A stretch of DNA of 64,000 nt, taken from contig NZ_CP120416.1 of assembly GCF_032773895.1 (NCBI RefSeq), positions 3,036,001 through 3,100,000 of the forward strand, in the 5' to 3' direction. Positions 50,096-64,000 of this stretch are shown here, in pieces. The translations under genes and the position numbers were made by a program. Each line of letters opens with the position of its first letter. Position 1 is the stretch's first letter. This stretch comes from Teredinibacter sp. KSP-S5-2. Its GTDB lineage: Bacteria; Pseudomonadota; Gammaproteobacteria; Pseudomonadales; Cellvibrionaceae. The notes beneath the pieces were generated by a model, which did no database searches, was not told the DNA's origin, and was given only the letters and a program-made list of their open reading frames with translations.

Positions 50096-50120
50096 TACTT
50101 TGAAGAATTAATATTGAATC

Positions 50121-50154
50121 AACTAATCCCCAGGAGAAATACCGGGGATTAGTT
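50121..50154. terminator. Bidirectional terminator between convergent genes
   Basis: AACTAATCCCC, a 12-nt loop and GGGGATTAGTT form a perfect 11-bp stem followed by Ts on the plus strand. It serves the lipoprotein (plus) and, reading the other way, the P-loop kinase gene that ends at 50156. Confidence 0.85.
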
Positions 50155-50155
50155 T

Positions 50156-50659
50156 TTAGCTGATGTGCTTTTGAATTTCCATCACACAATCCAATACAGA
50201 TTTTCCAGCCGTATCAATAATAAACCTATCGCAATTCCATTGATGGTATTCCCTATTTTCAATTTCATCCCATGTAGATAGTTTAAGATTCGGCACTGTT
50301 GATTGACGAAGTTCTACACGCTGACGATGCTCCATTTTGTCGGAGCAGATAATTTCAATATTCACAGAATCAGCACTACTGTTTATCGCAACGTCATTCC
50401 ATTCTCCGCGAGTCAACGTGATAGGGTTACATGAATCTGCTATAACGCTTTTGCCCAGCCTAAGGTTATCGGATGCAATTCTGTATGCTAATCGATACCC
50501 TTCACCTTCGACAGAATAATTACACAAATCTCTTAATGCCTGTTCTATCGTATCTATGCGTAAATAAAAAGCGTGGGTGATTCTCGCCAGCTCTTGAGCC
50601 AGTGTACTTTTCCCCACACCAGGAAGCCCGGAAAATATGTACAGCTTAGGTTTACTCAT
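50156..50659 (-). CDS. P-loop kinase-like protein (AAA_33 type)
   Basis: A 167-residue nucleotide-binding protein with Walker A GLPGVGKST (11-19), then LRIDTIEQALRD and VIADSCNP, the pattern of small zeta-toxin/gluconate-kinase-like AAA_33 proteins. These phosphorylate small molecules or aminoglycosides; the substrate here is unknown. It starts 25 bases after the PaiB-like gene stop and is probably cotranscribed with it. Confidence 0.78.
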   Translation of the reverse strand: MSKPKLYIFSGLPGVGKSTLAQELARITHAFYLRIDTIEQALRDLCNYSVEGEGYRLAYRIASDNLRLGKSVIADSCNPITLTRGEWNDVAINSSADSVNIEIICSDKMEHRQRVELRQSTVPNLKLSTWDEIENREYHQWNCDRFIIDTAGKSVLDCVMEIQKHIS

Positions 50660-50684
50660 GAGATCTCACACTGGATTGTATAAG

Positions 50685-51269
50685 TTATTCGGAAACACGC
50701 TTCATGGCTTCAGCAAGCTTAATCGAACCCAAATCACATAATCGATCAATCACCTGCTCCCTATCTTCAGCCGAACGATTCTGACTCAATTTATATTGGC
50801 ACTGAATATCATCGATTGAGATTTCAACACCAACAATCGCTTTGAGCATGGCGTTATTGTATTCAGGTTGCCAGGGTGGAGTTAAAAGCGACTCATATTT
50901 TTCCGTGAGTTTATCCACCACATATTGAAGCCTGTCCAAATCCGTAAAAATGCGTGCACGTCCGTAAATATGAACAGCTTGATAATTCCAGGTGGGCACA
51001 CCGGGGCTTTTATACCAGGAAGGTGAAATATAATCATGCGGCCCTTCTAAAGTAATCATTACCTCCTGACCATCCAGTTCATTACATTGAGGATTGTTTC
51101 CTGCCAGATGCCCCAACATTTTCGTATTGTCGTTCGACAATAGAAACGGCATATGTGTGGAAAATATCCTGCCAGAAACATGAGAAATCAGTTGGCCAAA
51201 TGCATTCGCCTGGACAAAAGACAAGATCTCTTCCTTATCGGTAATCTCAAAGTACTTAGGTATATGCAT
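50685..51269 (-). CDS. PaiB-like FMN-binding protein (negative transcriptional regulator family)
   Basis: A 194-residue protein of the PaiB/FMN-binding split-barrel family: IPKYFEITDKEEILSFVQANAFGQL at the start, the flavin-side motif HLAGNNPQ, then YISPSWYKSPGVPTWNYQAVHIYG, which is diagnostic. In Bacillus PaiB represses protease and sporulation genes; many homologues may be oxidoreductases instead. It is transcribed towards the P-loop kinase gene. Confidence 0.9.
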   Translation of the reverse strand: MHIPKYFEITDKEEILSFVQANAFGQLISHVSGRIFSTHMPFLLSNDNTKMLGHLAGNNPQCNELDGQEVMITLEGPHDYISPSWYKSPGVPTWNYQAVHIYGRARIFTDLDRLQYVVDKLTEKYESLLTPPWQPEYNNAMLKAIVGVEISIDDIQCQYKLSQNRSAEDREQVIDRLCDLGSIKLAEAMKRVSE

Positions 51270-51482
51270 AATTTATCCTTGTAGATCTTCCATAAACAAT
51301 TCATCGACCGATCATTTAACAAGCTCCTACAAACCGTTATTGAACAAGTAACAGGCGGGTAACAATATAAGACTGATAACGGAATGATAATGGAGTTTTA
51401 ATTGTCTTCTACTTTCACTCACCTATGTCGTCCTATGCAAGCAAATTACGGAAAAATCCGGAATTATTTTGTCGTTCAGTCA

Positions 51483-51511
51483 TTGAAATTCCCCCACACA
51501 GTCATTATAAG
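51483..51511 (+). promoter_or_regulatory. Promoter of htpX
   Basis: TTGAAA, a 17-bp spacer and TATAAG lie 58 bases upstream of the htpX ATG. A run of Cs after the -35 gives partial likeness to a sigma-32 site, but the fit to sigma-70 is better. Confidence 0.55.
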
Positions 51512-51569
51512 GTGCTTGGTACCCACTGGATTTTAACTGCTTATTAATACATTTAACTGGAGCAATTTA

Positions 51570-52454
51570 ATGCTACGAATCTTACTTTTCCTAGGGTCAA
51601 ATATTGCTGTACTGGCCTTGTTAAGCCTGACCTTCAGCCTATTGGGCATAGGTGGTCTGCTAAAGGAAAACGGCGTTGACCTCGACCTCAATGCTTTGCT
51701 TATTTATGCGGCAGTAATTGGTTTCAGCGGCTCATTCATCTCTTTGCTATTGTCCAAATTCATGGCAAAAGCCTCAATGAAAGTCGCCGTCATTACGCAA
51801 CCCGGTAATCAGGTTGAACACTGGTTGGTTGATACCGTTCGCCGCCAGGCGTCTCAAGCCGGTATCGGCATGCCGGAAGTGGGTATATTTAACCACCCTT
51901 CTCCTAACGCTTTTGCCACCGGTTGGAACCGTAACAACGCGTTAGTGGCAGTAAGTACGGGTTTATTACAAACAATGGGCAGGGAAGAAGTTGAGGCTGT
52001 TCTCGCCCACGAAGTCAGCCACGTTGCCAATGGCGATATGGTCACTCTGGCGTTGATTCAGGGTGTAGTGAATACCTTCGTCGTATTTGTTTCCCGTGTT
52101 ATTGGCTTCCTGGTGGACCGATTGATTTTCAAGGTAGAGCGTGGACACGGGCCCGGCTTTTGGATTGTTTCTATGATCGCCGAAGTCGTGCTAGGCATTC
52201 TCGCCACAACCATTGTCATGTGGTTTTCCCGCTGGCGGGAATATCGCGCGGATGCGGGAGGAGCAAAACTCGCCGGAAAACAAAACATGATCTCCGCCTT
52301 GCGCGCACTGCAAACGCAACACAACGCTCCCCCGATGCCGGAGGAGATGTCAGCCTTTGCCATTAACGCGGGCAAAGTACAGTTGCTATTCTCCAGCCAT
52401 CCACCACTGGAAGCACGCATTGAAGCTTTGCAACGAAGCACTGATATTAAATAA
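51570..52454 (+). CDS. htpX: HtpX, membrane-bound zinc metalloprotease
   Basis: HtpX degrades misfolded membrane proteins along with FtsH. It has two N-terminal membrane helices (about 5-26 and 43-62), the zinc motif HEVSH (147-151, catalytic E148), two further helices (about 160-180 and 195-215) and the third zinc ligand Glu in SRWREYRADAGGA. Length 294 aa is standard. GGAG lies 7 nt before the ATG. An inverted repeat follows the gene. Confidence 0.96.
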   Translation: MLRILLFLGSNIAVLALLSLTFSLLGIGGLLKENGVDLDLNALLIYAAVIGFSGSFISLLLSKFMAKASMKVAVITQPGNQVEHWLVDTVRRQASQAGIGMPEVGIFNHPSPNAFATGWNRNNALVAVSTGLLQTMGREEVEAVLAHEVSHVANGDMVTLALIQGVVNTFVVFVSRVIGFLVDRLIFKVERGHGPGFWIVSMIAEVVLGILATTIVMWFSRWREYRADAGGAKLAGKQNMISALRALQTQHNAPPMPEEMSAFAINAGKVQLLFSSHPPLEARIEALQRSTDIK

Positions 52455-52465
52455 CGAGACATTTT

Positions 52466-52500
52466 AGGAGGCATGTTGTTTGAGAATGACATTGCCTCCT
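52466..52500 (+). terminator. Hairpin after htpX
   Basis: AGGAGGCA and TGCCTCCT form an 8-bp stem around a 19-nt loop, 12 bases after the htpX stop and 23 before the convergent GNAT gene. T-runs are weak on both sides. Confidence 0.55.
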
Positions 52501-52522
52501 TATCCCAATAATTTAACCCGGC

Positions 52523-52996
52523 TTACATCCTATATTCCATCATCAGCTCTGGCTGCCCGGTATTTGTATCGATTTGTTCACCGGCGATAACAAATCCGTG
52601 TTTTTTATAGAATTCAGTACTCGAAGAATTCATTTTATATACAGTCAACTGGAGTTGCTTACGCCTTTTCTTGGCATCGTTCATCAAAGCGCTTCCTATT
52701 CCTTTACCCTGATGGTTAGGTAAAACAAAAATCGCTGCCAACGTATCGCCATATAAACAATAAAACCCAACGATTTTTCCATCAGCCTCAAACACATAGG
52801 TTTCTGATACAGGGATATAGAGGTTTCGCATATCCTCTACTTTTGATTGCCAAAACTCGGAGGGAATAAAATGGTGGGCCTCCACTGAGGCCGAAAGCCA
52901 AATGCCCAGAATGGAGTTCATATCCCGGCTTTTATAGTTTCGGATCATACTTCTCTTACTGCCATGAACATCAGCCTGTTTAACAGCAACAGACAT
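52523..52996 (-). CDS. GNAT-family N-acetyltransferase (YjaB-like)
   Basis: A 157-residue acetyltransferase. The acetyl-CoA loop is VLPNHQGKGIGSALM; the N-terminal part (SILGIWLSASVEAHHFIP) and EFYKKHGFVIAGEQ resemble E. coli YjaB. Substrate unknown. A Met at residue 17 (MIRNYKS) is an equally likely start. It follows the nitrilase gene by about 19 bases and is probably cotranscribed with it. Confidence 0.85.
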   Translation of the reverse strand: MSVAVKQADVHGSKRSMIRNYKSRDMNSILGIWLSASVEAHHFIPSEFWQSKVEDMRNLYIPVSETYVFEADGKIVGFYCLYGDTLAAIFVLPNHQGKGIGSALMNDAKKRRKQLQLTVYKMNSSSTEFYKKHGFVIAGEQIDTNTGQPELMMEYRM

Positions 52997-53015
52997 TTAG
53001 TATCGTTATCCTACC

Positions 53016-53954
53016 CTACCCTTTAAAAACCGTCGGTGACGGCCTGGACTTATTTACTTCTAAATGAAAAACATCTGGCCGGGAATAATGCCCGGCAACG
53101 TCCAAAGCGCGCCGAGATATCGCTGCCTGTTCAACATCAATATCCAGCACAATAAACCCTTTCTGGTTTGTTAAGGGGCCAGCGACAATTTCACCGCTCG
53201 GTGAAACAACAAGCGAATCGCCAGGATTAATCCACTCCTCGTCTACAGGATATAGTCGATCCAGATCTGGAAAGTTTTCAGGTAAATCTTTTCGTTCCAG
53301 CGCAACACCACAGCATAACACCCAGCATCGCCCTTCTCTTGCAATATGTTGCATGGTTCCAATCCACGCATCACCGCTATCATAAGTTGGTGCAATATAT
53401 ATTTCTACACCTTGGGAGTACAACGCGTATCTCGCCAAAGGCATATAGTTTTCCCAACAAATTAAGCTACCAATTTTTCCAACTGGCGTATCAACAACAT
53501 TTAAACCATATCCATCACCAAATCCCCAAACCATTCGTTCAGGGTTAGTTGGCATTAACTTCCTATGGTGATTAACAATATGCCCCTCAGCATCAATAGT
53601 TATTACAGCGTTATAAATCGTTGAACGACTATTTGTGTTATCTCGTTCGTTAATACCACATACCACGGTGACTTGTTTCTCCCTGGCAATAGTCAGTAGA
53701 GGTGTTAAATCATTGGAGGACAGATCAATCGCATTCTGAAATAGCCTGGCATGTAATCTTTGACATAAGCTCCCATCACTGCCCGGCCGCAATCGCCAAA
53801 TCCAGGCAGGGTATCCGGGAATAAAGGCTTCAGGAAAAACAACAAGCTCTGCACCTTGCGCTGCAACAGAATCAATGATCTCTACGGCCTTTTTGACAGT
53901 ACGTTGTTTATCAAGAACACATGGCGCTTCTTGAATAATGGCTATCTTCTTCAT
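53016..53954 (-). CDS. Nitrilase (aliphatic nitrilase / cyanide hydratase type)
   Basis: A carbon-nitrogen hydrolase with the complete catalytic triad: E42 (VVFPEAFIPGYP), K132 (HHRKLMPTNPER) and C166 (LICWENYMPLAR). The wording around the Cys is typical of true nitrilases and cyanide dihydratases, not amidases. ATG 53954 (MKKIAII) starts the conserved domain; the frame is open 17 codons upstream but that part is not conserved. Length 312 aa is normal. Substrate specificity cannot be read. Confidence 0.92.
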   Translation of the reverse strand: MKKIAIIQEAPCVLDKQRTVKKAVEIIDSVAAQGAELVVFPEAFIPGYPAWIWRLRPGSDGSLCQRLHARLFQNAIDLSSNDLTPLLTIAREKQVTVVCGINERDNTNSRSTIYNAVITIDAEGHIVNHHRKLMPTNPERMVWGFGDGYGLNVVDTPVGKIGSLICWENYMPLARYALYSQGVEIYIAPTYDSGDAWIGTMQHIAREGRCWVLCCGVALERKDLPENFPDLDRLYPVDEEWINPGDSLVVSPSGEIVAGPLTNQKGFIVLDIDVEQAAISRRALDVAGHYSRPDVFHLEVNKSRPSPTVFKG

Positions 53955-54143
53955 AACCAAACCCCACGGGCTTGCTATCGGACGAGTAACTACTGTCTTT
54001 AACACTAGTTAATTCAGGAGAGACTGCCAGAAAAAAGCCTATTGTTTTTAGAATTATTACTTGAAAGTTTGGTAAATGGCATTCCTTGCCAGGAAAACAC
54101 AAACAAGCCGTTTTTCAATTCTTCTGCTTACTGCTTGATAACA

Positions 54144-54848
54144 CTATTGCTTACAGGGCACAACAAAATCAATATGATAGTGTTCATCATGCCTTACCCA
54201 AGAACGCTTTTTAGAGAACTGAATATGAGACTTTAAATAGTCTGCATATTTGGTTGAATACAAATTCGGTTGAAGTTCAGGGGCGAATATCACACGCCAT
54301 ATTTCTCGGTTACGCTTTTTGGCCTGTTGATGCAACGCGACAATATGTGCAGCCATTGCCTCGTAATCAATATGCATTCCGTCATAATGACTGTCATTAT
54401 CAAACTCAATATTGTAACCAAGCTTATTCAGAGGGTTAGTCGGCAAATGGACAGACTTCCCATTTTCATCCACAACTGGAACCATAAAATCTACGGATAA
54501 ACCATTCCTGTGAGTTTTGTGCGGCGAAAACTTCCCTCCATTTTTAAAGCCTGTCTCAGCGTATTTATAGACCTTACTTGGCTGTTCTTGCTCAAGAACT
54601 TTATAGGTTGAAACAATAATATCCCTTACATCGGAATGAATATAAGTTCTACCAGCCAGTCTAGCGACGAAGCTGTATGTAACAAAATTAGTTCCTTTCG
54701 ATGGAAGCTCTACACCTTCAGCTAAACGACCATTGGATGTTGTGCCGTAGCAAGTACTGGGTTCTGCCGAGACAAGGACAGGAAGTAGAACTGTACTAAA
54801 AATCCCCGTTAAAAGTACAATCACTAACCTATAAGATAGATAATTCAA
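54144..54848 (-). CDS. Secreted LAS-type murein endopeptidase-like protein (MepA-like)
   Basis: After a signal peptide (MNYLSYRLVIVLLTG to VSA, cut near 28) the protein has the LAS zinc motifs: H113 and D120 (THRNGLSVD) and H223/H225 in HDEHYHIDF, as in MepA, which cuts peptidoglycan cross-links. Family members are about 250-280 aa, so this is slightly short. Its ATG overlaps the preceding gene by 4 bases (ATGA), so it is translationally coupled to the small-secreted-protein array. It could mature the wall or act on prey or competitors; that is inference. Confidence 0.82.
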   Translation of the reverse strand: MNYLSYRLVIVLLTGIFSTVLLPVLVSAEPSTCYGTTSNGRLAEGVELPSKGTNFVTYSFVARLAGRTYIHSDVRDIIVSTYKVLEQEQPSKVYKYAETGFKNGGKFSPHKTHRNGLSVDFMVPVVDENGKSVHLPTNPLNKLGYNIEFDNDSHYDGMHIDYEAMAAHIVALHQQAKKRNREIWRVIFAPELQPNLYSTKYADYLKSHIQFSKKRSWVRHDEHYHIDFVVPCKQ

Positions 54849-55162
54849 AATGCCAACCTATGAACACGCCGTTCAGCATTCCCTTCAACAGGGTCTTTCT
54901 GACATAAAACCTCTCCAGATAATCCTTGTGCTCTTGCAGCAAGCGCAGCTGAATATAATTCCTTGTCCGTCTTACTGATTTTACAAATTTCGCCATTAGA
55001 CAAGAAAATTCTGGTATCTGATGTTTCCCAGTAAACAATAACTTTTTCAATTTTTACGTTTTTATTCCATTGCCAATAGGGATCATAAGTGGCCGAATCA
55101 GAACATACAACAGGTGAAAACGCCAAGGCCAAAAAACCTAATAAATACTCTTTTAAATACAT
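54845..55162 (-). CDS. Small secreted two-Cys protein, array member 5
   Basis: A 105-residue protein with a signal peptide (YLKEYLLGFLALAFSPVVCS). The mature part follows the array pattern: IEKVIVYWE strand, IRxFLSNGEIC with the first Cys, ELYSAALAARAQGLSG as the LAA/SG motif, and a final Cys in VLCQKD. It is the most divergent member (SGK is replaced by LSGE). ATG 55162 has AGGAGG at 5-nt spacing. Its end overlaps the peptidase ATG by 4 bases. Confidence 0.7.
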   Translation of the reverse strand: MYLKEYLLGFLALAFSPVVCSDSATYDPYWQWNKNVKIEKVIVYWETSDTRIFLSNGEICKISKTDKELYSAALAARAQGLSGEVLCQKDPVEGNAERRVHRLAF

Positions 55163-55208
55163 CCACTCCTCCTTTTTATCAATCCCTATCAACTTTGGCT
55201 TATTATAT

Positions 55209-55556
55209 TTATTTAATATAGGCCGCAGTAATTTTACATACTGGAGCAATTGGCGTTACGCTATCGTTTACTTCAAGCTGTATTGACTTCCCTGAAATCC
55301 AGGCAGCAAGCAGAATCGAAAGAATATGTTCGTCTTCCTTTAACAGATCAGCTGCATCCCCTCTACAAGCAGTATCTCCCCATGCCACATTATTCACGTA
55401 TATTCTGGTTATACCCGAACAACTAGGACAATGAGTTCGATCCATAGCCATTGGATGAATACGCTCAATCACAACATCTCTTACTACAGGCTTAGCAATA
55501 ACAGTCAATGATGTAAAAAAAAGTAGAACAAAACTTAAAGGTAATAATATTTTCAT
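55209..55556 (-). CDS. Small secreted two-Cys protein, array member 4
   Basis: A 115-residue protein with a signal peptide (MKILLPLSFVLLFFTSLTVIA). It shares the family core ILSILLAAWISGKSIQLEV with the neighbours and has four Cys (CPSC, TACRG, PVCKI), two more than most members. GGAGCGAC precedes the ATG. Function is not recognised. It lies 46 bases before member 5. Confidence 0.75.
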   Translation of the reverse strand: MKILLPLSFVLLFFTSLTVIAKPVVRDVVIERIHPMAMDRTHCPSCSGITRIYVNNVAWGDTACRGDAADLLKEDEHILSILLAAWISGKSIQLEVNDSVTPIAPVCKITAAYIK

Positions 55557-55630
55557 TGTCGCTCCATTTAGGACTTAAATTTCGGCAATATTTAAAACAC
55601 ATACAGTATTCAATTTAGTCATTTCCCGCC

Positions 55631-55954
55631 TTAATTGATTATGGTAAAACTACCAGGCCGAGGAGAATCACCTAAGCAATCGTTATCCGCAATACCTACT
55701 TTAACTTTCTTACCCGATGCATGCGCTGTTAATGCAATGCTCAACATAGCATCAGACATTGAATCAGTCATTTCCCATCTAAGCTGATTATGCCTTGAAC
55801 AAGTTGACACAGACTCATTCGGGATAATATTTAAAAAAACATAGTTTCCCCCTCGGGTAACACCTACCTCAGTAATAGTAAACTCTTCTGTACCGGCAGC
55901 ATAAATATTACTTGATAGAACGACAGCAAAAACAATAGCTATCATTTTTTTCAT
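55631..55954 (-). CDS. Small secreted two-Cys protein, array member 3
   Basis: A 107-residue protein with a signal peptide (MKKMIAIVFAVVLSSNIYA). Mature part: TITEVGVTRGGNYVFLNI strand, Cys in VSTCSRH, then MLSIALTAHASGKKVKVGI and the second Cys in DNDCLG. It is closest in pattern to the members at 56415 and 61922. ATG 55954 gives the best signal peptide. Function unknown. Confidence 0.75.
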   Translation of the reverse strand: MKKMIAIVFAVVLSSNIYAAGTEEFTITEVGVTRGGNYVFLNIIPNESVSTCSRHNQLRWEMTDSMSDAMLSIALTAHASGKKVKVGIADNDCLGDSPRPGSFTIIN

Positions 55955-56023
55955 AAAACACCCTAAAAGTAAAACGAAATAAACAGAATTAAACAAAACA
56001 ACTATTATAAAACATTCAGTTTA

Positions 56024-56341
56024 TTAATAATCATAATAATAAAAATACGTTGGAGTACAATTACCACTTGTATTTGGATTATAGCCAGCAATTATTTCCA
56101 TTTTTGACATTCTAGAAGCAAGTAACATACTTACCCATTGTTTTCCATGCTCAGAAGTAGGGTCAAACTGAAACTGCCAACCATTTGCAAGATCACAACT
56201 CGGACTCGTATTCCCCTTCTCAAGCGTAACATACGCCACCTTTGAACTATGAACCAAGAAGCCTTTTACGGTCCCAGTAAACTCCGCCGCATTCAAACTT
56301 ACTGAAAACAACAATACAATAACACTGATAATAATCTTCAT
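56024..56341 (-). CDS. Small secreted two-Cys protein, array member 2
   Basis: A 105-residue protein with a signal peptide (MKIIISVIVLLFSVSLNA). It follows the family pattern: FTGTVKGFLVHSSKVAYVTL, Cys in SPSCDL, WVSMLLASRMSKMEII in place of LAAxxSGK, second Cys in SGNCTP, and a Tyr-rich tail (YFYYYDY). Function unknown. Confidence 0.72.
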   Translation of the reverse strand: MKIIISVIVLLFSVSLNAAEFTGTVKGFLVHSSKVAYVTLEKGNTSPSCDLANGWQFQFDPTSEHGKQWVSMLLASRMSKMEIIAGYNPNTSGNCTPTYFYYYDY

Positions 56342-56414
56342 TTTTATTTCCTATTTATAATAAATACAGGTTATATTCAACATCATGCAAGATATCACGT
56401 ACAGAGTTTCAAAA

Positions 56415-56756
56415 TTACTCATTTTTAAGATACATTGAACCTGCTGATGTCAGTTCGTTATGCGTACCGCCATGCCAACCATATTCAGTACACTGATGAG
56501 AATATATTTGGAGTTTTTTTCCACTCATATAGGCAGCTAACGCAACAGACAACAGTCGTTCATATTGGGGGTGCTGGACCGAGATAAAAACCGTGTTGGT
56601 TACGGTGCAGTTTGACGGATTACCAAACTCCCCCCTTAACTGAAAACCTTGGGCTCGAATTATCTCCAAGTCAACCACATTAGCAGTATTCGTATATCCG
56701 TTCGCAAAGGATAAATTTGACACAAAAAGTGTTAAACACAGCCATATATACTTCAT
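56415..56756 (-). CDS. Small secreted two-Cys protein, array member 1
   Basis: A 113-residue protein with a signal peptide (MKYIWLCLTLFVSNLSFA). It has the family core: VVDLEIIRAQGFQLRG, Cys in PSNCTV, LLSVALAAYMSGKKLQIY and Cys in HQCTEYGW. GGAG precedes ATG 56756. It is the first member of the array and lies 105 bases after a 200-bp repeat copy that also precedes the solitary member at 61922-62254. Confidence 0.75.
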   Translation of the reverse strand: MKYIWLCLTLFVSNLSFANGYTNTANVVDLEIIRAQGFQLRGEFGNPSNCTVTNTVFISVQHPQYERLLSVALAAYMSGKKLQIYSHQCTEYGWHGGTHNELTSAGSMYLKNE

Positions 56757-56822
56757 TGTTACTCCTATTTTTCTAACAGTACAAGAGAGATAATTTCTCA
56801 AACACTCGAATGAAAACAATTC

Positions 56823-57035
56823 TCACCAACTAATTGTTTTATTTCCAATAAAATAATAAGAAGAAAGCTCGTATAGAACGGCTATTGATAGGAAAGATAT
56901 GCCTATGTACATACACGGCTGAACAATCTGAGACATCCATGTATTTGATAATGAGACACTTTTCCCTTTAGCTGCAAGAAGCGGCTCTCTCTCGGAAAAA
57001 CACAGAATGCATTTCTGTTTGTCATTAAACTCCAT
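56823..57035 (-). CDS. Small CxxC/one-helix membrane protein in repeat copy 1
   Basis: A 70-residue open frame with CILC near the N-terminus, a polar middle (GKSVSLSNTW) and one membrane-like helix (CMYIGISFLSIAVLYELSS). It lies almost wholly in the 200-bp repeat. The second copy of the frame has a premature TGA at codon 9, so either this is the intact gene and the other a pseudogene, or the repeat acts as DNA or RNA and the frame is accidental. No ribosome site of strength is seen. Confidence 0.4.
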   Translation of the reverse strand: MEFNDKQKCILCFSEREPLLAAKGKSVSLSNTWMSQIVQPCMYIGISFLSIAVLYELSSYYFIGNKTISW

Positions 57036-57060
57036 TCAGGCAGAAATGTCTATTTCCAAA
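56861..57060. repeat. 200-bp direct repeat, copy 1
   Basis: This segment is 197/200 identical to 62371-62570, same orientation. The mismatches are at 56942/62452, 57009/62519 and 57040/62550. Weaker similarity continues to about 57105, where a decayed form of the flagellin-2 terminator is recognisable. It lies between the HAF protein gene and array member 1. No transposase or inverted ends are seen. Confidence 0.95.
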
Positions 57061-57226
57061 TGGAGTGACGAAAAAAGCATAAACAACTTGCAGTTACTTG
57101 CACTCAGGAGAAGTTCATATCAAAAATAAGTATGATTTGTAATCCCCACTAGAATTAGTATTCTGGGCGAGAGAAACTAAAATACCCACCCAGAACACGA
57201 ATTAAAGCAATACAATTTCCTAGGAA

Positions 57227-60200
57227 TTAAGGAATCGTTACAACTTCTTCTAAATTATCAAACTTACCGGTTAACCCTAACTGATTACTGTATATATACA
57301 TGTTCATATCCCCCCAATCGGTAAAATTCTGATGATCTTCATACAAAGTACCTCGATCTTGGCCTAATGGGTAAATATAAAGACTCGTTCCTGTGTCGTG
57401 ACAAACTAATTCAAGTTGATAAACGACTCCCGTTTCTGCAGCTCCGAGATCAATGATATAGTCATAACCATAAACCGTATTTGTTCGAACCATCCAGCGG
57501 CCGTTCTCAATAAATGCTGAGTGGTATCTCATTCCAGAACGAACACTAGAGGAGTTCATTGCGCCAAACCCTAGCTCTCCAGAAGAATACCAGTTCCCAG
57601 TAACTTCAACTCTGGCTCTAATGGTAACTTGATCGGAGAAAAAATAGTTTCGATCGCCATAAATTTGAAACGGAGTAGTTTGCCATCCAGTCATACGATT
57701 GAAACTTAAACTACCAGCAGAAACAGAGACATGATCCGGTAAGATGCTTAGACCAGAACTATCTGTATTAAAGTTTTGGGACCACAAAATAGTTTCTGTT
57801 CCACCAGTTTGATCCGTAACGATAACACTAACGGCTGTACTGGAAACCGAATCTCCGGCACTGTCTGTAACGCGAGCAACAATGCTGTGAGACCCAGAAG
57901 CTAAATCGCTAAGTACAACACTAGGCCCAACTTCATCTCTCAATACACCATTAAGGAACCACTGAATATTACTAGAAAGAACCGTATCATCGTCCTCAAC
58001 ATCCATAGCCTCAGCGGTAAAACTAATAGCCTCTCCAACAAAATATTCGGAACCGTCAGCAGGCAACAAAATATTTACCACTGGAGGATTATTTGGAGCT
58101 GGGTTTACCACTACTGTGACTTCAGTACTTTTAACTGAAGCACCGGCGGAATCTGTTACTTGCGCCCCGATTTGGTATGTACCATGTATCAAATCGATTA
58201 AAGAGATTGATGCCCCCTTTTCCGCCTGGAGAACACCGTCAACGAACCATTCAATGGTTGCTGAGAGTAAAGCATCATCATCCTCAACATCGGTAGCTGT
58301 AGCGGAAACATCGACGATTTCCCCTTGAATATATTCAGAACCACTAATCGGCGAAGTAATATCTATACTGGGAGGATTATTTGGTATCGCATCAGGAACG
58401 ATCTCTTTAATATTATCAAAGTAACCATCCAAACCAAGTTGATTGCTATATAAAACTAGAGTAACGTCCCCCCAATCAGTATAGGACTGATGGTGCTCAT
58501 AGAGAGCTCCTCGCGATTGTCCAACTGGATACACATATATGCTCGAGCCTCCGCTATGTAGCTCAACATCAATTTTATAAGTGACATTTAACTCAGCAGC
58601 ACCTAGCTCGATAATGCTATCCCACCCGTAAACATTATTGGTACGGATATACCAACGTCCGTTTTCCATGAATGCGGAGTGATAACGCATATTTGATCGA
58701 ACTTCAGTCGTATTTTTTATTCCAAAACCCAATTCGCCAGACGAATACCAGCTATTAATTGCAGTTAACTCTCCAACGAACATTACTCTTTCGCTAAATC
58801 CGTAGGTTCGAATTCCATTCACCTCAAATACATGGGTTCTCCAATCGGTTAAACGTGTTGTATTTAGTACACCATTTGTAACTGAATAATGATCAGGCAA
58901 ACCGGTTAAACCAAAACTATTGGAGGTAAAATCCTGTGACCAGGCAGCATTAGATAAAACAGAAAAAGCAACCTCCTGACTGGTAGCCGTTGCCCCCTGA
59001 CTATCTGTTACTTCAGCATAAACAAAGTAACCTCCCTCAGCTAGATCGTTTATCGTTATTGTTGCGCCAGTTTCTGCACGCTCTACACCATTGACAAACC
59101 AACGTACATAATTCGAGAGAGTCGTATTATCGTCTTCTGCATCCGTCACCGTAGCCGAAAGTTGAATATCATCACCAACGATAAACTCATCCGAGTTTAA
59201 GGGCGAGGTTAATTCGATAGCTGGATCTGTATTTGGTGGCTGCAGCCCACTTCTGACAATGAATAAATCTGTTGACTCATTAGTATCTCCAGGCACAAGA
59301 TTGCGTGATCTACTGGATATTAGTACATATTGACCATCTTCAGAAATATCAGGGGACCAACTGTCACTTAGCCCTAACTCATGATTATTATTTATCGAAA
59401 TAGCTCTCGTGACTTGAGTCTCTCTATTCCATATATAAGCATCATATTTAAAATTATTGTCTTGACCAATATTTTCGTCCGTCCAATAAACAATATGCTT
59501 TCCATCAGGAAAGAGTTTTGCTCCGCCATATTTAGCATCCGATTTTAATATCTCTGTCGTCGTATTATCAACTCGATTTCGTATATACAACCTATTCTTT
59601 TTATGAGTGTTTGCAGGGTCTGATAAATCTCCTTCATACGAAAATAATAGAGTATTTCCGTCATCGGTGATTTCATGATAACCCGCTTCTGCAATTTCAT
59701 TTTGACTAACAGACCCATCGGTTGAAACAGTTATCAGTTCCGTTTTCTTTGTCACTCGGTCATACAAGTATATATTTGAACGCCCACCAACGCTTCGATT
59801 TACCATATTTTTGGCGCGAGAAACCATGGTTATGTAGCGGCCGTCCGATGTAATTTTCCCAACATAAGTACTCCCATCCAACTCACCACCATCGAAACTT
59901 TTGGAAATTCGCTCAAGAACGTTAGTCTGTGTATTAAATAGAAACACATCATAAAAACCGTTAGCATCCCCTTCAACAAAACCATTTTCTGGAGAAGAAA
60001 AAATAACATATTGGCCATCCGCACTAATATTAAACCCACCATGACGTAAATTAATTGCTCTACCATCTTGAGATTTGGTTACCAGCCGAATGGTGCCTGT
60101 CTCCAAGTTCTTTAAATAAAGATAAGGATAAAACACACTAGAATTAAAGGGTTCAAGTTCAGGAGAATTGGAAGTAAAGAGCAGAAATTTTCCATCATCT

Positions 60201-61621
60201 GAAATGGAATACATTGGACTTGGCCCCATCCCTTTACTCAACTGTGCACCAGTTTCTGTGGTTGATAACCTTATTACCTCACCTGTCACATTATTCCGCT
60301 GAAAGAGATCAGTAGTATTATTGGTGTCTCCAGGAACAACATTGTCAGCAAAACTCGTGAATAGAGTATAACGGCCATTATGAATAAGCTTACCACTTAG
60401 AGCTCTTCCTCCAACTAGCTCTTTATTATCGTAGGTGAGAGAACTTCGTATAATATTTCCGTACTCTAAACCGTCATTGATAAAGTTATTATTTGAGTCT
60501 GCATTATCAATTGGCAGCCCTAAAGCAACCTCTTCATCATCGGTTAAGCCATCATTATCCAGATCACTTTCCACTGGCACATCCAACCTTAGCGTCCAGC
60601 TTTTATACTCTTCTTTAGGGGTATACCCATTACCTATAATGGTTTTACCATCATCGGAAACCCCTACCGCATCGCGAAGCTGCCATTCTTTATGATAATA
60701 AAAGTCCCCATTTCGGTCATTTAAGTTTATCTGGTAAGTATTTTTCGCTATTTCTGATAGGTTTTGCATCCCGTGTTCCGCAGTCCATATGAAAGCAGCC
60801 TCATCAGCGTAAGATCCATATGGACAACTGTTACCTACAATCACACGACCATCAGCAGAAATATCTCTGGCAATACTGCCACAGCCAGGCGTTAATTCAC
60901 CTAAAGGTTGCATACCTTCTGCCTCAGTCCAGCGAAAAGCCATGGGAGCACCTTCTATATAAGAATAACCCACTACTACGCCGTTATCTGAAACACCTGT
61001 TGCTTCACTATAATAATCTCCACCTGGAAAATCCCCTAAACCTCGACTTCCATTTTTTTGCGACCAAACAAAAGCCTCATATTCAGAGGTCATACCTACA
61101 AGCATATTTGCATTGTTTCTTCCAACGACATATTCACCGGAAGGAGAAATAGCATTTACATTTAGGTTCGAGTAAGGCCTATCGTCGATAGTTGGAATTG
61201 TATCTATAGCCCCTGTGATTCGATTCCATCGAAACCCCGAGCGACCATCAAGATTCCCGCCCGCTAGTATAACGCCATCCCTGGAGACGTCTCCAACCTG
61301 AATTCTGGTCGAGGAGAAAAAAGCGTTAAGGTCAAAAAGACCTCCATCATGGGTCCATAAAGAAGATTGGTAATCATTTTGAAACTGCGAACCAATACAG
61401 ACTGTTCCACTATCAGAGCAACCTGATATACGAATCGATATGGTGTTTTTCCCGGTTAAACCGGTTTGAATCATTCCCCCGGTAAAAATGACATTTCCGT
61501 TAGGTGAGATACCTCCAACATCTTTAAACATCCCCTCAGTTAGGGTAGAAAATGCATTTACATTTCCAACATAAAAGCACAGTAAAATAAAAATTATTTT
61601 TAAAACGGATATACCGTACAT
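57227..61621 (-). CDS. Giant secreted HAF-repeat / beta-propeller / Ig-like protein
   Basis: A secreted protein of about 1464 residues. After a signal peptide (VLKIIFILLCFYVGNVNA) there are HAF-type extracellular repeats (30-350; GLGDFPGGDYYSEATGVSDN), a calcium-binding-like linker (DLDNDGLTDDEE), a TolB/PD40-like propeller (about 400-800; DISEDGQYVLISSRS), three Ig/cadherin-like domains with DVEDDDTVLS, and two copies of a lectin-like domain of about 180 residues (near 905-1085 and 1283-1464, sharing WYSSGELGFG and GMRYHSAF-like strings). ATG 61621 is preferred over a TTG three codons earlier. It probably faces the outside; ligand unknown. Confidence 0.82.
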   Translation of the reverse strand: MYGISVLKIIFILLCFYVGNVNAFSTLTEGMFKDVGGISPNGNVIFTGGMIQTGLTGKNTISIRISGCSDSGTVCIGSQFQNDYQSSLWTHDGGLFDLNAFFSSTRIQVGDVSRDGVILAGGNLDGRSGFRWNRITGAIDTIPTIDDRPYSNLNVNAISPSGEYVVGRNNANMLVGMTSEYEAFVWSQKNGSRGLGDFPGGDYYSEATGVSDNGVVVGYSYIEGAPMAFRWTEAEGMQPLGELTPGCGSIARDISADGRVIVGNSCPYGSYADEAAFIWTAEHGMQNLSEIAKNTYQINLNDRNGDFYYHKEWQLRDAVGVSDDGKTIIGNGYTPKEEYKSWTLRLDVPVESDLDNDGLTDDEEVALGLPIDNADSNNNFINDGLEYGNIIRSSLTYDNKELVGGRALSGKLIHNGRYTLFTSFADNVVPGDTNNTTDLFQRNNVTGEVIRLSTTETGAQLSKGMGPSPMYSISDDGKFLLFTSNSPELEPFNSSVFYPYLYLKNLETGTIRLVTKSQDGRAINLRHGGFNISADGQYVIFSSPENGFVEGDANGFYDVFLFNTQTNVLERISKSFDGGELDGSTYVGKITSDGRYITMVSRAKNMVNRSVGGRSNIYLYDRVTKKTELITVSTDGSVSQNEIAEAGYHEITDDGNTLLFSYEGDLSDPANTHKKNRLYIRNRVDNTTTEILKSDAKYGGAKLFPDGKHIVYWTDENIGQDNNFKYDAYIWNRETQVTRAISINNNHELGLSDSWSPDISEDGQYVLISSRSRNLVPGDTNESTDLFIVRSGLQPPNTDPAIELTSPLNSDEFIVGDDIQLSATVTDAEDDNTTLSNYVRWFVNGVERAETGATITINDLAEGGYFVYAEVTDSQGATATSQEVAFSVLSNAAWSQDFTSNSFGLTGLPDHYSVTNGVLNTTRLTDWRTHVFEVNGIRTYGFSERVMFVGELTAINSWYSSGELGFGIKNTTEVRSNMRYHSAFMENGRWYIRTNNVYGWDSIIELGAAELNVTYKIDVELHSGGSSIYVYPVGQSRGALYEHHQSYTDWGDVTLVLYSNQLGLDGYFDNIKEIVPDAIPNNPPSIDITSPISGSEYIQGEIVDVSATATDVEDDDALLSATIEWFVDGVLQAEKGASISLIDLIHGTYQIGAQVTDSAGASVKSTEVTVVVNPAPNNPPVVNILLPADGSEYFVGEAISFTAEAMDVEDDDTVLSSNIQWFLNGVLRDEVGPSVVLSDLASGSHSIVARVTDSAGDSVSSTAVSVIVTDQTGGTETILWSQNFNTDSSGLSILPDHVSVSAGSLSFNRMTGWQTTPFQIYGDRNYFFSDQVTIRARVEVTGNWYSSGELGFGAMNSSSVRSGMRYHSAFIENGRWMVRTNTVYGYDYIIDLGAAETGVVYQLELVCHDTGTSLYIYPLGQDRGTLYEDHQNFTDWGDMNMYIYSNQLGLTGKFDNLEEVVTIP

Positions 61622-61921
61622 CGTTGACAATCCCTCTAATGTTAAAAACAGGCATCCTTGGATTGTTTAGGAAAAATATGTCAACCAAAAACACCTTGAC
61701 GCCTCTAAAAAAACAAGAAACGCCATATATTCATAACGCAGAATTTTAATTAAGATCCGATTTTTATGATTTGCATCTTTCTCTATTACATCATATCTCC
61801 TGCTTTTAGATGAGCTCTATTACCCACTACTATTCAACCAATATTACAAAAATACTACACATGTTTCTTCTTATAGGGTAAGCCGCATCTTAACTACGCA
61901 ATTATCATATAGTTTGCCTTG

Positions 61922-62254
61922 TTAACCTTGATTAATAACAACTTCATTGGCATCTTCAATATCACCCCAGCGAGTGCAATCATTGTTGCCAACAACTTCT
62001 ACTTCTTTACCAGACACCCAAGCAGCCATAAGAATTGAAATTTGAGTTTTACCCGCAGGGCTATTTTCATCTTTAATTGTCCAAGCACTATTAGTTGCGC
62101 AATTTGGACGACTATTGTGAGCTCCCGTTAATTTAAAATAATGTAAATTGTCTGAGGCACGAACCCTTACCCACTCAACAGTTCCCGAACCACTTCCTGC
62201 AAACACTGAGCTAGAAACCAAGCTTAAAACCAATACCACAAGAACTTTTTTCAT
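61922..62254 (-). CDS. Small secreted two-Cys protein, solitary member 6
   Basis: A 110-residue protein with a signal peptide (MKKVLVVLVLSLVSSSVFA). Core: GTVEWVRVRASDNLHYFKLT, Cys in RPNCATN, QISILMAAWVSGKEVEVVG, Cys in NDCTRWG. It is the clearest form of the family. GGAG lies 6 nt before ATG 62254; a GTG four codons earlier is less likely. It lies 117 bases after repeat copy 2 and upstream of the giant HAF gene. Confidence 0.78.
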   Translation of the reverse strand: MKKVLVVLVLSLVSSSVFAGSGSGTVEWVRVRASDNLHYFKLTGAHNSRPNCATNSAWTIKDENSPAGKTQISILMAAWVSGKEVEVVGNNDCTRWGDIEDANEVVINQG

Positions 62255-62362
62255 ATACATCTCCACTTTCGACTGACAATTAAAAAAGATACACTACAGA
62301 ACTCCGAAAACAAAAGAATAACAACCATTCTCAAATATTAAATTATTATTTAAATCAATAAA

Positions 62363-62545
62363 TTAACAAAAAGAAAGCTCGTATAGAACGGCTATTGATA
62401 GGAAAGATATGCCTATGTACATACACGGCTGAACAATCTGAGACATCCATGCATTTGATAATGAGACACTTTTCCCTTTAGCTGCAAGAAGCGGCTCTCT
62501 CTCGGAAAAACACAGAATTCATTTCTGTTTGTCATTAAACTCCAT
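62363..62545 (-). pseudogene. Broken copy of the small CxxC/one-helix frame
   Basis: This is the counterpart of the frame at 56823-57035. TGC at codon 9 has become TGA, and the C-terminus differs (ends YELSFC). Otherwise it is nearly identical. It is a pseudogene if the copy 1 frame is a gene. Confidence 0.45.
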
Positions 62546-62570
62546 TCAGACAGAAATGTCTATTTCCAAA
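62371..62570. repeat. 200-bp direct repeat, copy 2
   Basis: This is the second copy of 56861-57060. It lies just downstream of the flagellin-2 terminator and just upstream of secreted member 6. Together the copies bound 57061-62370, so homologous recombination between them could delete the giant HAF gene and member 6. Confidence 0.95.
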
Positions 62571-62585
62571 TAAAGCGGCATAAAA

Positions 62586-62618
62586 AAAGCACAAGCAACT
62601 TGTGATTGCTTGTGCTTT
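62586..62618 (-). terminator. Rho-independent terminator of flagellin 2
   Basis: On the minus strand AAAGCACAAGCA, a 9-nt loop and TGCTTGTGCTTT form a 12-bp stem followed by a T-run (TTTTTTT). It is 60 bases after the flagellin stop. Confidence 0.9.
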
Positions 62619-62630
62619 CCCAGGTACTTC

Positions 62631-62660
62631 GAGAATATCGGTACGGGATTCGATATTCTC
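62631..62660 (-). terminator. Second hairpin after flagellin 2
   Basis: GAGAATATCG, a 10-nt loop and CGATATTCTC form a perfect 10-bp stem between the flagellin stop and the strong terminator. There is no T-run; it may stabilise the 3' end of the message. Confidence 0.6.
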
Positions 62661-62677
62661 TCGGGGTGCTAAGGTGA

Positions 62678-64000
62678 TTAACCTTGGAGTAGCTGAAGCA
62701 CCTGTTGCGGTTGAGCATTTGCCTGAGCCAGCATGGCTTGTGAAGCCTGTTGCAGTACTTGTGCTCGGGAAAGGTTGGCCGATTCTGCAGCAAAGTCCGC
62801 ATCGACAATTCGTGAACGCGCTGCCGCAGTATTTTCTGAAATATTGGACAGGTTGCTCATGGTAAATTCAAGTCGATTGTTAATTGCACCTAAATCTGAC
62901 CGTGTGGCATTAATGGTTTCCAGCGCATTATCAATCGGCGATATGGCTTCCTGTGCCGAGGTATACGTCGCCACACTCAAGTTGGCAATGGCGGAACCGG
63001 TTACCACAGAAGACAACTCCGTATTTTGGTTTAATAAACCTGTTGCCGTTTGTGCGGAGGCATTACCTTCAATGGAAATGGTGGTTTCATTAATAGAGGT
63101 GAGTTCAATACCGGCACCAATAACATAGGAGGTCGCATTCAGGGCACCATCCGCATCCGTATCGGAAATCAGATCCATTATTCCCAAAGAGTGTGCTGCT
63201 GTCATCGCTGTTCTGGATGTTCCCAATTGAATTGAAATATTGGAAGTCGAACTGAGCGATAGCTCACCATTATCATCAATTTCAGCGTGTACCCCTGTTT
63301 GTGCCTCACTAATATTAATATCTGCGACAACTTGTGTTAAATCACCAAGGTCTGTAAGTGCCACCACCTGGCCATTAATCACCAAGTCTGAGTTGGCGGC
63401 TATGGTACTTAAGTCAGCATCTGCAACTGCGGTTCCACTTACCACCGCTGTTGCCGCTGTAAATGCATCTTGCAGACCGCCCAAGTTCGCCACGGTAGCG
63501 GTGCCATCAGCAATCACTATTGGCCCTGCGGCAAAAATATGAATCTCGCCGTTGTCATCCACTGCCGCGGTTACGCCAGTATTATCCGAGACATCATTAA
63601 TTGCAGTCGCAACATCTTCTAATGTTGTACCGGCAAAGTTAGAGGTGGTAATACCGTTAATAATTAAGTTTTGACCCGCGGTAATGGCTGCACCACCGGT
63701 CGAAACAAATTCAGTGGCAAATACTTGAGAATTTTCATCAAAAGCTTCGGTCGCATTCGACGTAGCCACCACATTGGTATCCGACGTTGCATTATTAATG
63801 GTATCGATTACACCTTGTAAGCTGTCATTTTGTGTCGCTTCAATTACAACACCATTAATTTTTAAATCGCCAGTTTCCAAACCTTCAGAAAAATCTACCG
63901 TACCCGCTGGCACTGTCGCACCGTTGGAGACACCTTTTACAGTACCGTCACCACTGGTTTGCTGAAAACCAAGGCTTGCAAGATCAGTCGCGGTACCTTC
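62678..64000 (-). CDS. Flagellin paralogue (partial, N-terminus off the right edge)
   Basis: This is the middle and C-terminal part of a second flagellin. The conserved C-terminus [17 protein letters not shown] and [18 protein letters not shown] is present, ending LLQG. The insert contains IN-type repeats (LKINGVVIEATQNDSLQG) that match the insert of the flagellin at 44134-46509, so the two are paralogues. The reading frame is open to the edge. Expression is probably sigma-28 driven, but the promoter is outside the window. Confidence 0.92.
   Translation of the reverse strand, partial: EGTATDLASLGFQQTSGDGTVKGVSNGATVPAGTVDFSEGLETGDLKINGVVIEATQNDSLQGVIDTINNATSDTNVVATSNATEAFDENSQVFATEFVSTGGAAITAGQNLIINGITTSNFAGTTLEDVATAINDVSDNTGVTAAVDDNGEIHIFAAGPIVIADGTATVANLGGLQDAFTAATAVVSGTAVADADLSTIAANSDLVINGQVVALTDLGDLTQVVADINISEAQTGVHAEIDDNGELSLSSTSNISIQLGTSRTAMTAAHSLGIMDLISDTDADGALNATSYVIGAGIELTSINETTISIEGNASAQTATGLLNQNTELSSVVTGSAIANLSVATYTSAQEAISPIDNALETINATRSDLGAINNRLEFTMSNLSNISENTAAARSRIVDADFAAESANLSRAQVLQQASQAMLAQANAQPQQVLQLLQG

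Follow-up and report, generated by a model that had tools for sequence, protein, structure and literature searches.

Integrons are usually described with one attI site beside the integrase gene, and an integron of that design therefore has only one spot that is both open to cassettes and close to the promoter. Cassette genes also occur without a nearby integrase, as in the CALIN (cluster of attC sites lacking an integrase) of IntegronFinder, for which excerpts of two accounts propose origins by loss of intI and by off-target insertion (PMC9024848, PMC8618304). Within the bacterial group studied here, Saccharophagus degradans has a core integron and five satellite clusters that share one intergenic repeat, and the available portion of that account makes no mention of attI at the satellites (PMC2386152). 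In the Delta-attI-type cassettes of mobile integrons, attI is likewise found away from its usual single place, as pieces that end resistance cassettes (PMC12901181, in excerpt). Our literature searches on attI with gene conversion and on orphan or trans attI gave, in the portions of the sources available, no description of integrase-free attI ports, and a search for work on Gilvimarinus integrons found none.

Here we analyze a duplicated 200-bp segment in a 64,000-nucleotide stretch of the chromosome of Teredinibacter sp. KSP-S5-2 (the window). The genome resembles a sedentary chromosomal integron in having IntI above the cut-off of the TIGR02249 model, a LexA box, attI with G^TT, and tandem cassettes in one direction, with VCR-like attC in relatives. 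It differs in that the copies in the window are without intI or recognisable attC, and in that there are 12-13 leaders rather than one. CALIN are defined by their attC sites, whereas the part retained here is the attI leader, according to the portions of PMC9024848 and PMC8618304 at hand; and unlike the attI pieces of the Delta-attI type (excerpt of PMC12901181), whole leaders here begin arrays. We consider it probable that the locus as a whole is best explained by integrase-free attI leaders with a variable cassette payload, two of which, e1 and e2, have been homogenised by gene conversion.

Two leader copies in front of secreted-protein genes

A repeat search of positions 50000-64000 of the window returned a single direct-repeat family, at 56846-57076 and 62356-62586 (95% identity over 231 positions). 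In an ungapped comparison of 56861-57060 with 62371-62570, 3 of 200 positions differ. Both 200-bp copies lie on the minus strand, 105 nt from the likely ATG of member 1 (position 56756) and 117 nt from that of member 6 (62254), so the original prediction of a 98.5% identical duplicate 105-117 nt upstream of these two genes is borne out. The quick decay that it described for the flank on the other side is also real, with identity down to about 60-65% within 20-40 nt at both ends of the segment. The flanks are nevertheless related: on the gene side, the two copies can each be aligned with one attI-distal sequence found in the other leader copies of the genome, and on the other side the flank of the first copy is similar to a terminator region left of the second. 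A terminator-like hairpin (62590-62604, minus strand) adjoins the second copy next to the end of a flagellin-like ORF, and the left edge of the first copy carries decayed sequence resembling that hairpin. We also considered a protein-coding reading of the segment and rejected it; the 70-aa ORF at 56823-57035 in copy 1 does not run through in copy 2 and was not seen in the other copies.

Profile matches, genome searches and alignment place the two leaders at 56790-57055 (e1) and 62295-62565 (e2), both on the minus strand and each including its 200-bp core. A putative attI crossover of e1, GTACTG^TTA, lies at 56774-56782 on the minus strand, 20 nt upstream of the member 1 ATG, at the aligned position of the ACTG^TT core. 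In the aligned core of e1, TACTG^TTAGAAAAATAGGAGTAACAATG, the crossover is followed by a ribosome-binding site and by the member 1 start. At e2 this core is lost and the crossover G is missing, and e2 is probably inactive as a recombination site. The first leader, e1, may still be at work today, in a window with no recognisable attC.

The genes behind both leaders belong to a secreted-protein family, A1. Member 1 (56415-56756, minus strand) is the first gene after e1 and is followed in the same array by members 2-5 (54845-56341, minus strand), which are closely packed, with gaps of about 30-85 nt between consecutive members and no recognisable attC between them. Member 6 (61922-62254, minus strand) is the lone gene after e2. 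Its stop codon is overlapped by TTAACAAGGCAAA (61910-61926, minus strand), possibly the left end of a former attC; the same 13 letters begin the attC at C1:1125947, which is suggestive only. A home-made attC scan found no site in the window, and the scan is insensitive, detecting 3 sites in an array with 7 repeat copies removed. Sites of this kind were seen in further arrays of the chromosome and in a related genome, G063. Between the two ports lies a gene for a 1467-aa protein with bacterial Ig-like domains (57227-61630, minus strand), a putative cassette at most.

To place the secreted genes in the genome, we used a profile built from 17 A1 proteins, which gave 38 matches. Seventeen of them are within 5 kb of one of 12 leaders (mean under rotation 0.80, with a count as high in 1 of 2000 rotations), and 21 are within 5 kb of a leader, a cassette repeat or an intI (mean 1.61, 2 of 2000); the remaining 17 have none of these three features within 5 kb. 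At two other platforms, A1 genes stand between consecutive cassette repeats. The predicted association of the segment with small secreted genes holds, though not exclusively, as an A1 gene occurs within 5 kb at only 6 of the 12 leaders (e1, e2, e6, e9, e10 and e11), the other leaders preceding other genes. We conclude that integron cassettes often carry members of the family to which the secreted genes belong. The family has matches in 61 of 144 genomes of the taxonomic family, this one included. When compared with DUF5992 (PF19454), 3 of the 17 members matched at E<=0.01 (best 8.1e-8), and member 1 scored 17.9 against a Pfam cut-off of 23.8. In genome G031, inferred to be Saccharophagus degradans, A1 matches at C1:526979, 560746 and 562548 fall inside the core integron, as far as its published description is available (PMC2386152, in part).

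The segment as an intI-attI leader

The genome consists of one 5.03-Mb contig. With the segment as a BLAST query, ten further places were found in it at E <= 5.5e-7, giving 12 copies (e1 and e2 in the window, e3-e12 elsewhere), and the 349-nt intI-attI region of e8 used as query recovered the same 12 places. A profile search added a 13th leader copy, without the crossover core. Matches to TIGR02249, the integron integrase model, exceed the cut-off at C1:1944667-1945608 and C1:2946016-2946936; a third intI, broken by one stop codon, is at 4585231 and an intI remnant at 3459187. The intI genes lie about 45 nt from leaders e8, e11 and e7 (that of e7 being broken), and the remnant lies beside e9. 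The same TIGR02249 search gave no IntI match in the range of the window, where e1 and e2 are without an intI of their own. Between intI and leader we found a LexA box, CTGT-N8-ACAG, which is perfect in e11, nearly so in e7-e9, present in Gilvimarinus, and absent at e1 and e2; a LexA motif is described for integrase promoters in the available part of PMC3108266.

Among named genomes, the nearest IntI relatives are in Gilvimarinus (68% identity), where the same leader spans the distance from intI to a core TAATACACTG^TTA (...TAATACACTG^TTAGCT, or in a longer form ...CGGAATTCCGTCTAATACACTG^TTAGCT). Because copies of the segment adjoin intI, and because the Gilvimarinus leader runs from intI to the core, the identification of the segment as the intI-attI leader of a chromosomal integron is well supported by sequence comparison. 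Of the roles first suggested for the segment, that of a recombination site for swapping payload genes is the one that these loci support. At e3-e6, a 358-aa ORF with an integrase core (rve_3) stands in place of intI and scores too low to pass the IS481 and IS3 transposase cut-offs. These four leaders lie in one large array (L021-L023, C1:1.12-1.16 Mb), and their units, each of about 1.7 kb, are 92-94% alike.

The segment is the conserved stretch from the integrase gene to the recombination point, and both copies in the window have lost intI. In a platform of this type, circular cassettes enter at a fixed point, the leader's end, so that the leader stays and the payload changes; in the window, that payload consists of small secreted proteins from a family that is common in cassettes. 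Integrase from other platforms in the genome could act in trans on the integrase-free attI sites, and a cassette promoter may lie inside the leader.

Gene-less cassettes are already known, and this genome contains 40 copies of a gene-less repeat of 211 nt (for example at L025:9954-10164), none of them in the window. In the fetched stretches, the arrangement G|ATACACGG...CACCGACCCG|TTA is kept by 25 of 26 full copies, which places them either at the attI crossover used by IntI (ATACTG|) or where an attC ends (GGCG|). We had considered the 211-nt repeat as the attC itself, but attC ends stand in front of it, and it is therefore a separate insert. If circular, the repeat would be able to base-pair over about 21 bases where its two ends meet, a potential hairpin. 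Searching 143 further genomes of the taxonomic family did not turn it up. In the L024 and L025 arrays, IS110-type transposase genes occur in cassettes, with the same end sequence (AGTATCAAG) joined each time to attC-like sequence.

The cause of the near-identity of e1 and e2

To ask what made the two cores so alike, we compared core and gene-side flank across pairs of leaders. The cores of e1 and e2 agree at 194 of 198 positions (in a core window slightly wider than 200 bp) and their gene-side flanks at 50 of 84 (Fisher p = 1.3e-16), a core/flank identity of 0.98/0.60. The corresponding values are 0.75/0.84 for e7-e12, 0.72/0.74 for e10-e12 and 0.82/0.79 for e7-e10. Against the other copies, e1 and e2 reach only about 0.57-0.65 in the core and 0.56-0.65 in the flank, the lowest similarity among all 12 copies. 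A contrast like that of e1-e2 is also seen for e9, which in comparison with e7 has 0.97 in the core against 0.76 in the flank and a break that is farther along than in e1/e2; breaks near the attI end are therefore not unique to e1/e2. The leader of e9 (C1:3458851-3459124) is 97% like that of e7 to the attI end and unlike it beyond, apparently another sign of recombination near the crossover. Because no other pair without e9 shows the contrast of e1-e2, gene conversion between e1 and e2 best accounts for the 98.5% identity; the two would be old paralogues, separated by 5.5 kb, that recently acquired matching 200-bp cores in this way. Gene conversion was one of the two causes offered by the original prediction, and it is the one that the core/flank comparison upholds.

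The other was selection, which would keep the 200-bp core constant as a promoter or RNA leader for the secreted genes. Parts of the leader are indeed conserved between genera, and the core folds somewhat better than shuffled sequences on the sense strand (z = -2.5, against -0.4 on the opposite strand). However, in the other pairs without e9 the core is no better kept than the flank, and it is therefore not generally under stronger constraint; the cores of e1 and e2 are, moreover, only about 57-65% like those of the other copies. A promoter scan of the segment gave nothing above chance level, and an Rfam search of part of the window gave no match at threshold, the one sub-threshold match (pntA, E = 4.1) lying elsewhere. 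We regard selection as improbable. The sharp drop of identity at both ends would also suit a small mobile element, or a recent duplicate, of 200 bp copied into one of the two sites. Against this, both sites share the same older gene-side homology, which makes each an attI site already before the core was homogenised, and since both flanks already belong to the attI family, the core is not newly inserted; nor does any of the 12 copies of the core stand outside an attI-type context. This origin we hold to be very improbable, and gene conversion between two existing leaders remains our reading of the identity.

Integrase-free leaders in relatives

A 231-bp query from the window found nothing in 57 other relatives, which were reached by profile only. 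A profile made from the 12 copies of this genome alone gave a weak top match (E = 0.14) in Gilvimarinus chinensis, 56 nt from intI, and the strong later scores were obtained once three Gilvimarinus loci had been built into the profile. With two Gilvimarinus loci added, the third, L116, was found at E = 4.5e-46 in a search of 139 loci, in which the only other match was weak (E = 0.61) and lay upstream of intI in L149. In L116 (also L256), the leader and a broken intI are separated by a 322-aa ORF. The final sequence-only profile, R1, built from 13 leaders of which three are from Gilvimarinus, detects the leader in 15 of the 144 genomes that represent the taxonomic family, this one included, and in 10 of 32 genera, although its weakest matches, near E = 0.01, may be due to chance; outside the taxonomic family, two weak matches were found among 244 sampled genomes of the order. 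IntI itself is present at E <= 1e-60 in 113 of the 144 genomes, this one again included.

We then fetched 27 leaders outside this genome, which are all listed matches with E <= 2.3e-4. Ten have IntI similarity within 3 kb upstream (at L266, only to the end of a recombinase), and for the other 17 six IntI queries found no intI within 3 kb at E <= 1e-5, a search that short remains may escape. The CTG^TT[AG] core is at the expected place in 22 of the 27, compared with 64 of 5600 random windows, and in 19 of 24 after dropping the three loci used in the model. In 23 of the 27, an ORF of at least 60 aa begins 10-65 nt past the leader match. The original prediction would have been hard to maintain had the segment been single-copy in relatives or scattered without small secreted genes beside it. 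It proved to be multi-copy, but many copies precede other kinds of gene.

Among the relatives, G063 has one intI-linked leader (L269) and five integrase-free ones (L265, L267, L268, L271 and L274), with a 22-nt core that is identical across all six. The LexA box is intact at L269 and at L268, which retains a remnant of the start of intI, and altered at L265, L267 and L271. Repeats of attC form (CATAACAAGG...GGCGTTA), 83-105 nt long, are common to the L269 array and the L265, L267 and L271 arrays, and L274 has an attC type of its own in common with L265. L274 is also syntenic with L281 of G015, a different species, with 76-84% identity over about 8.5 kb upstream; both are without intI, and from the crossover onward no sequence similarity is detectable between them, so the payloads differ. 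These data fit the idea that IntI could act in trans on integrase-free ports, which they leave unproven. The platforms may instead have been duplicated together with their cassettes, or intI may have been lost late and separately.

A related observation comes from three genomes of the Gilvimarinus group (L261, L262 and L264), which have a common flank, a conserved leader and unlike payloads, with the break at the crossover. We considered these loci as an orthologous, vertically inherited integrase-free site and rejected that reading when longer flanks revealed a recently shared island. Between two of the genomes the flank reaches 98.7% identity across 15.3 kb and 99.96% across 37.8 kb more, while the leaders differ far more; payload exchange there may therefore predate the loss of intI, and the loci were dropped as evidence for exchange in trans. 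The recently exchanged island abuts the attI leader in all three genomes, as if the leader or the start of intI were an insertion point. It carries putative metal-efflux and antirestriction-like genes. An rRNA origin of the flank was also considered, and Rfam and tRNA searches gave nothing.

Integrase-free attI sites could, on the other hand, be dead fossils, with intI lost after the last cassettes had entered and the gene differences between species predating that loss. Some leader-bearing genomes are indeed without IntI at E<=1e-60 (for example G035, G006, G002 and G087), intI remnants persist at several leaders, e2 has lost its crossover base, and L261, L262 and L264 give no sign of exchange after intI loss, their shared flank being a recent island. 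What speaks against fossils is that in G063 the core is the same at the intI-linked port and at five integrase-free ones, while the LexA box is altered at three of the four integrase-free ports that could be aligned; that attC types are common to its intI-linked array and four of its five integrase-free arrays; and that the payloads of the syntenic L274 and L281 are unlike from the crossover on. We consider the fossil explanation plausible but somewhat doubtful. For the fuller proposal our judgment is evenly balanced: that in several genera the integron has shed intI-less attI leaders, kept as working ports served by IntI in trans and so providing several "first positions", and that in the genome of the window a 208-nt gene-less cassette has also come to occupy the IntI crossover at most of the intact attI sites and in many cassettes.

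As judged from their genomes, related marine bacteria carry several apparent integrase-free docking sites, each in front of different genes. Several such attI ports per genome would alter the understanding of how cassettes are expressed and ordered, and they would escape tools that seek intI and attC. They would also explain how a variable secreted family comes to stand behind a conserved leader at scattered sites, and the segment in the window would be a naturally occurring example of two recombination platforms undergoing gene conversion.
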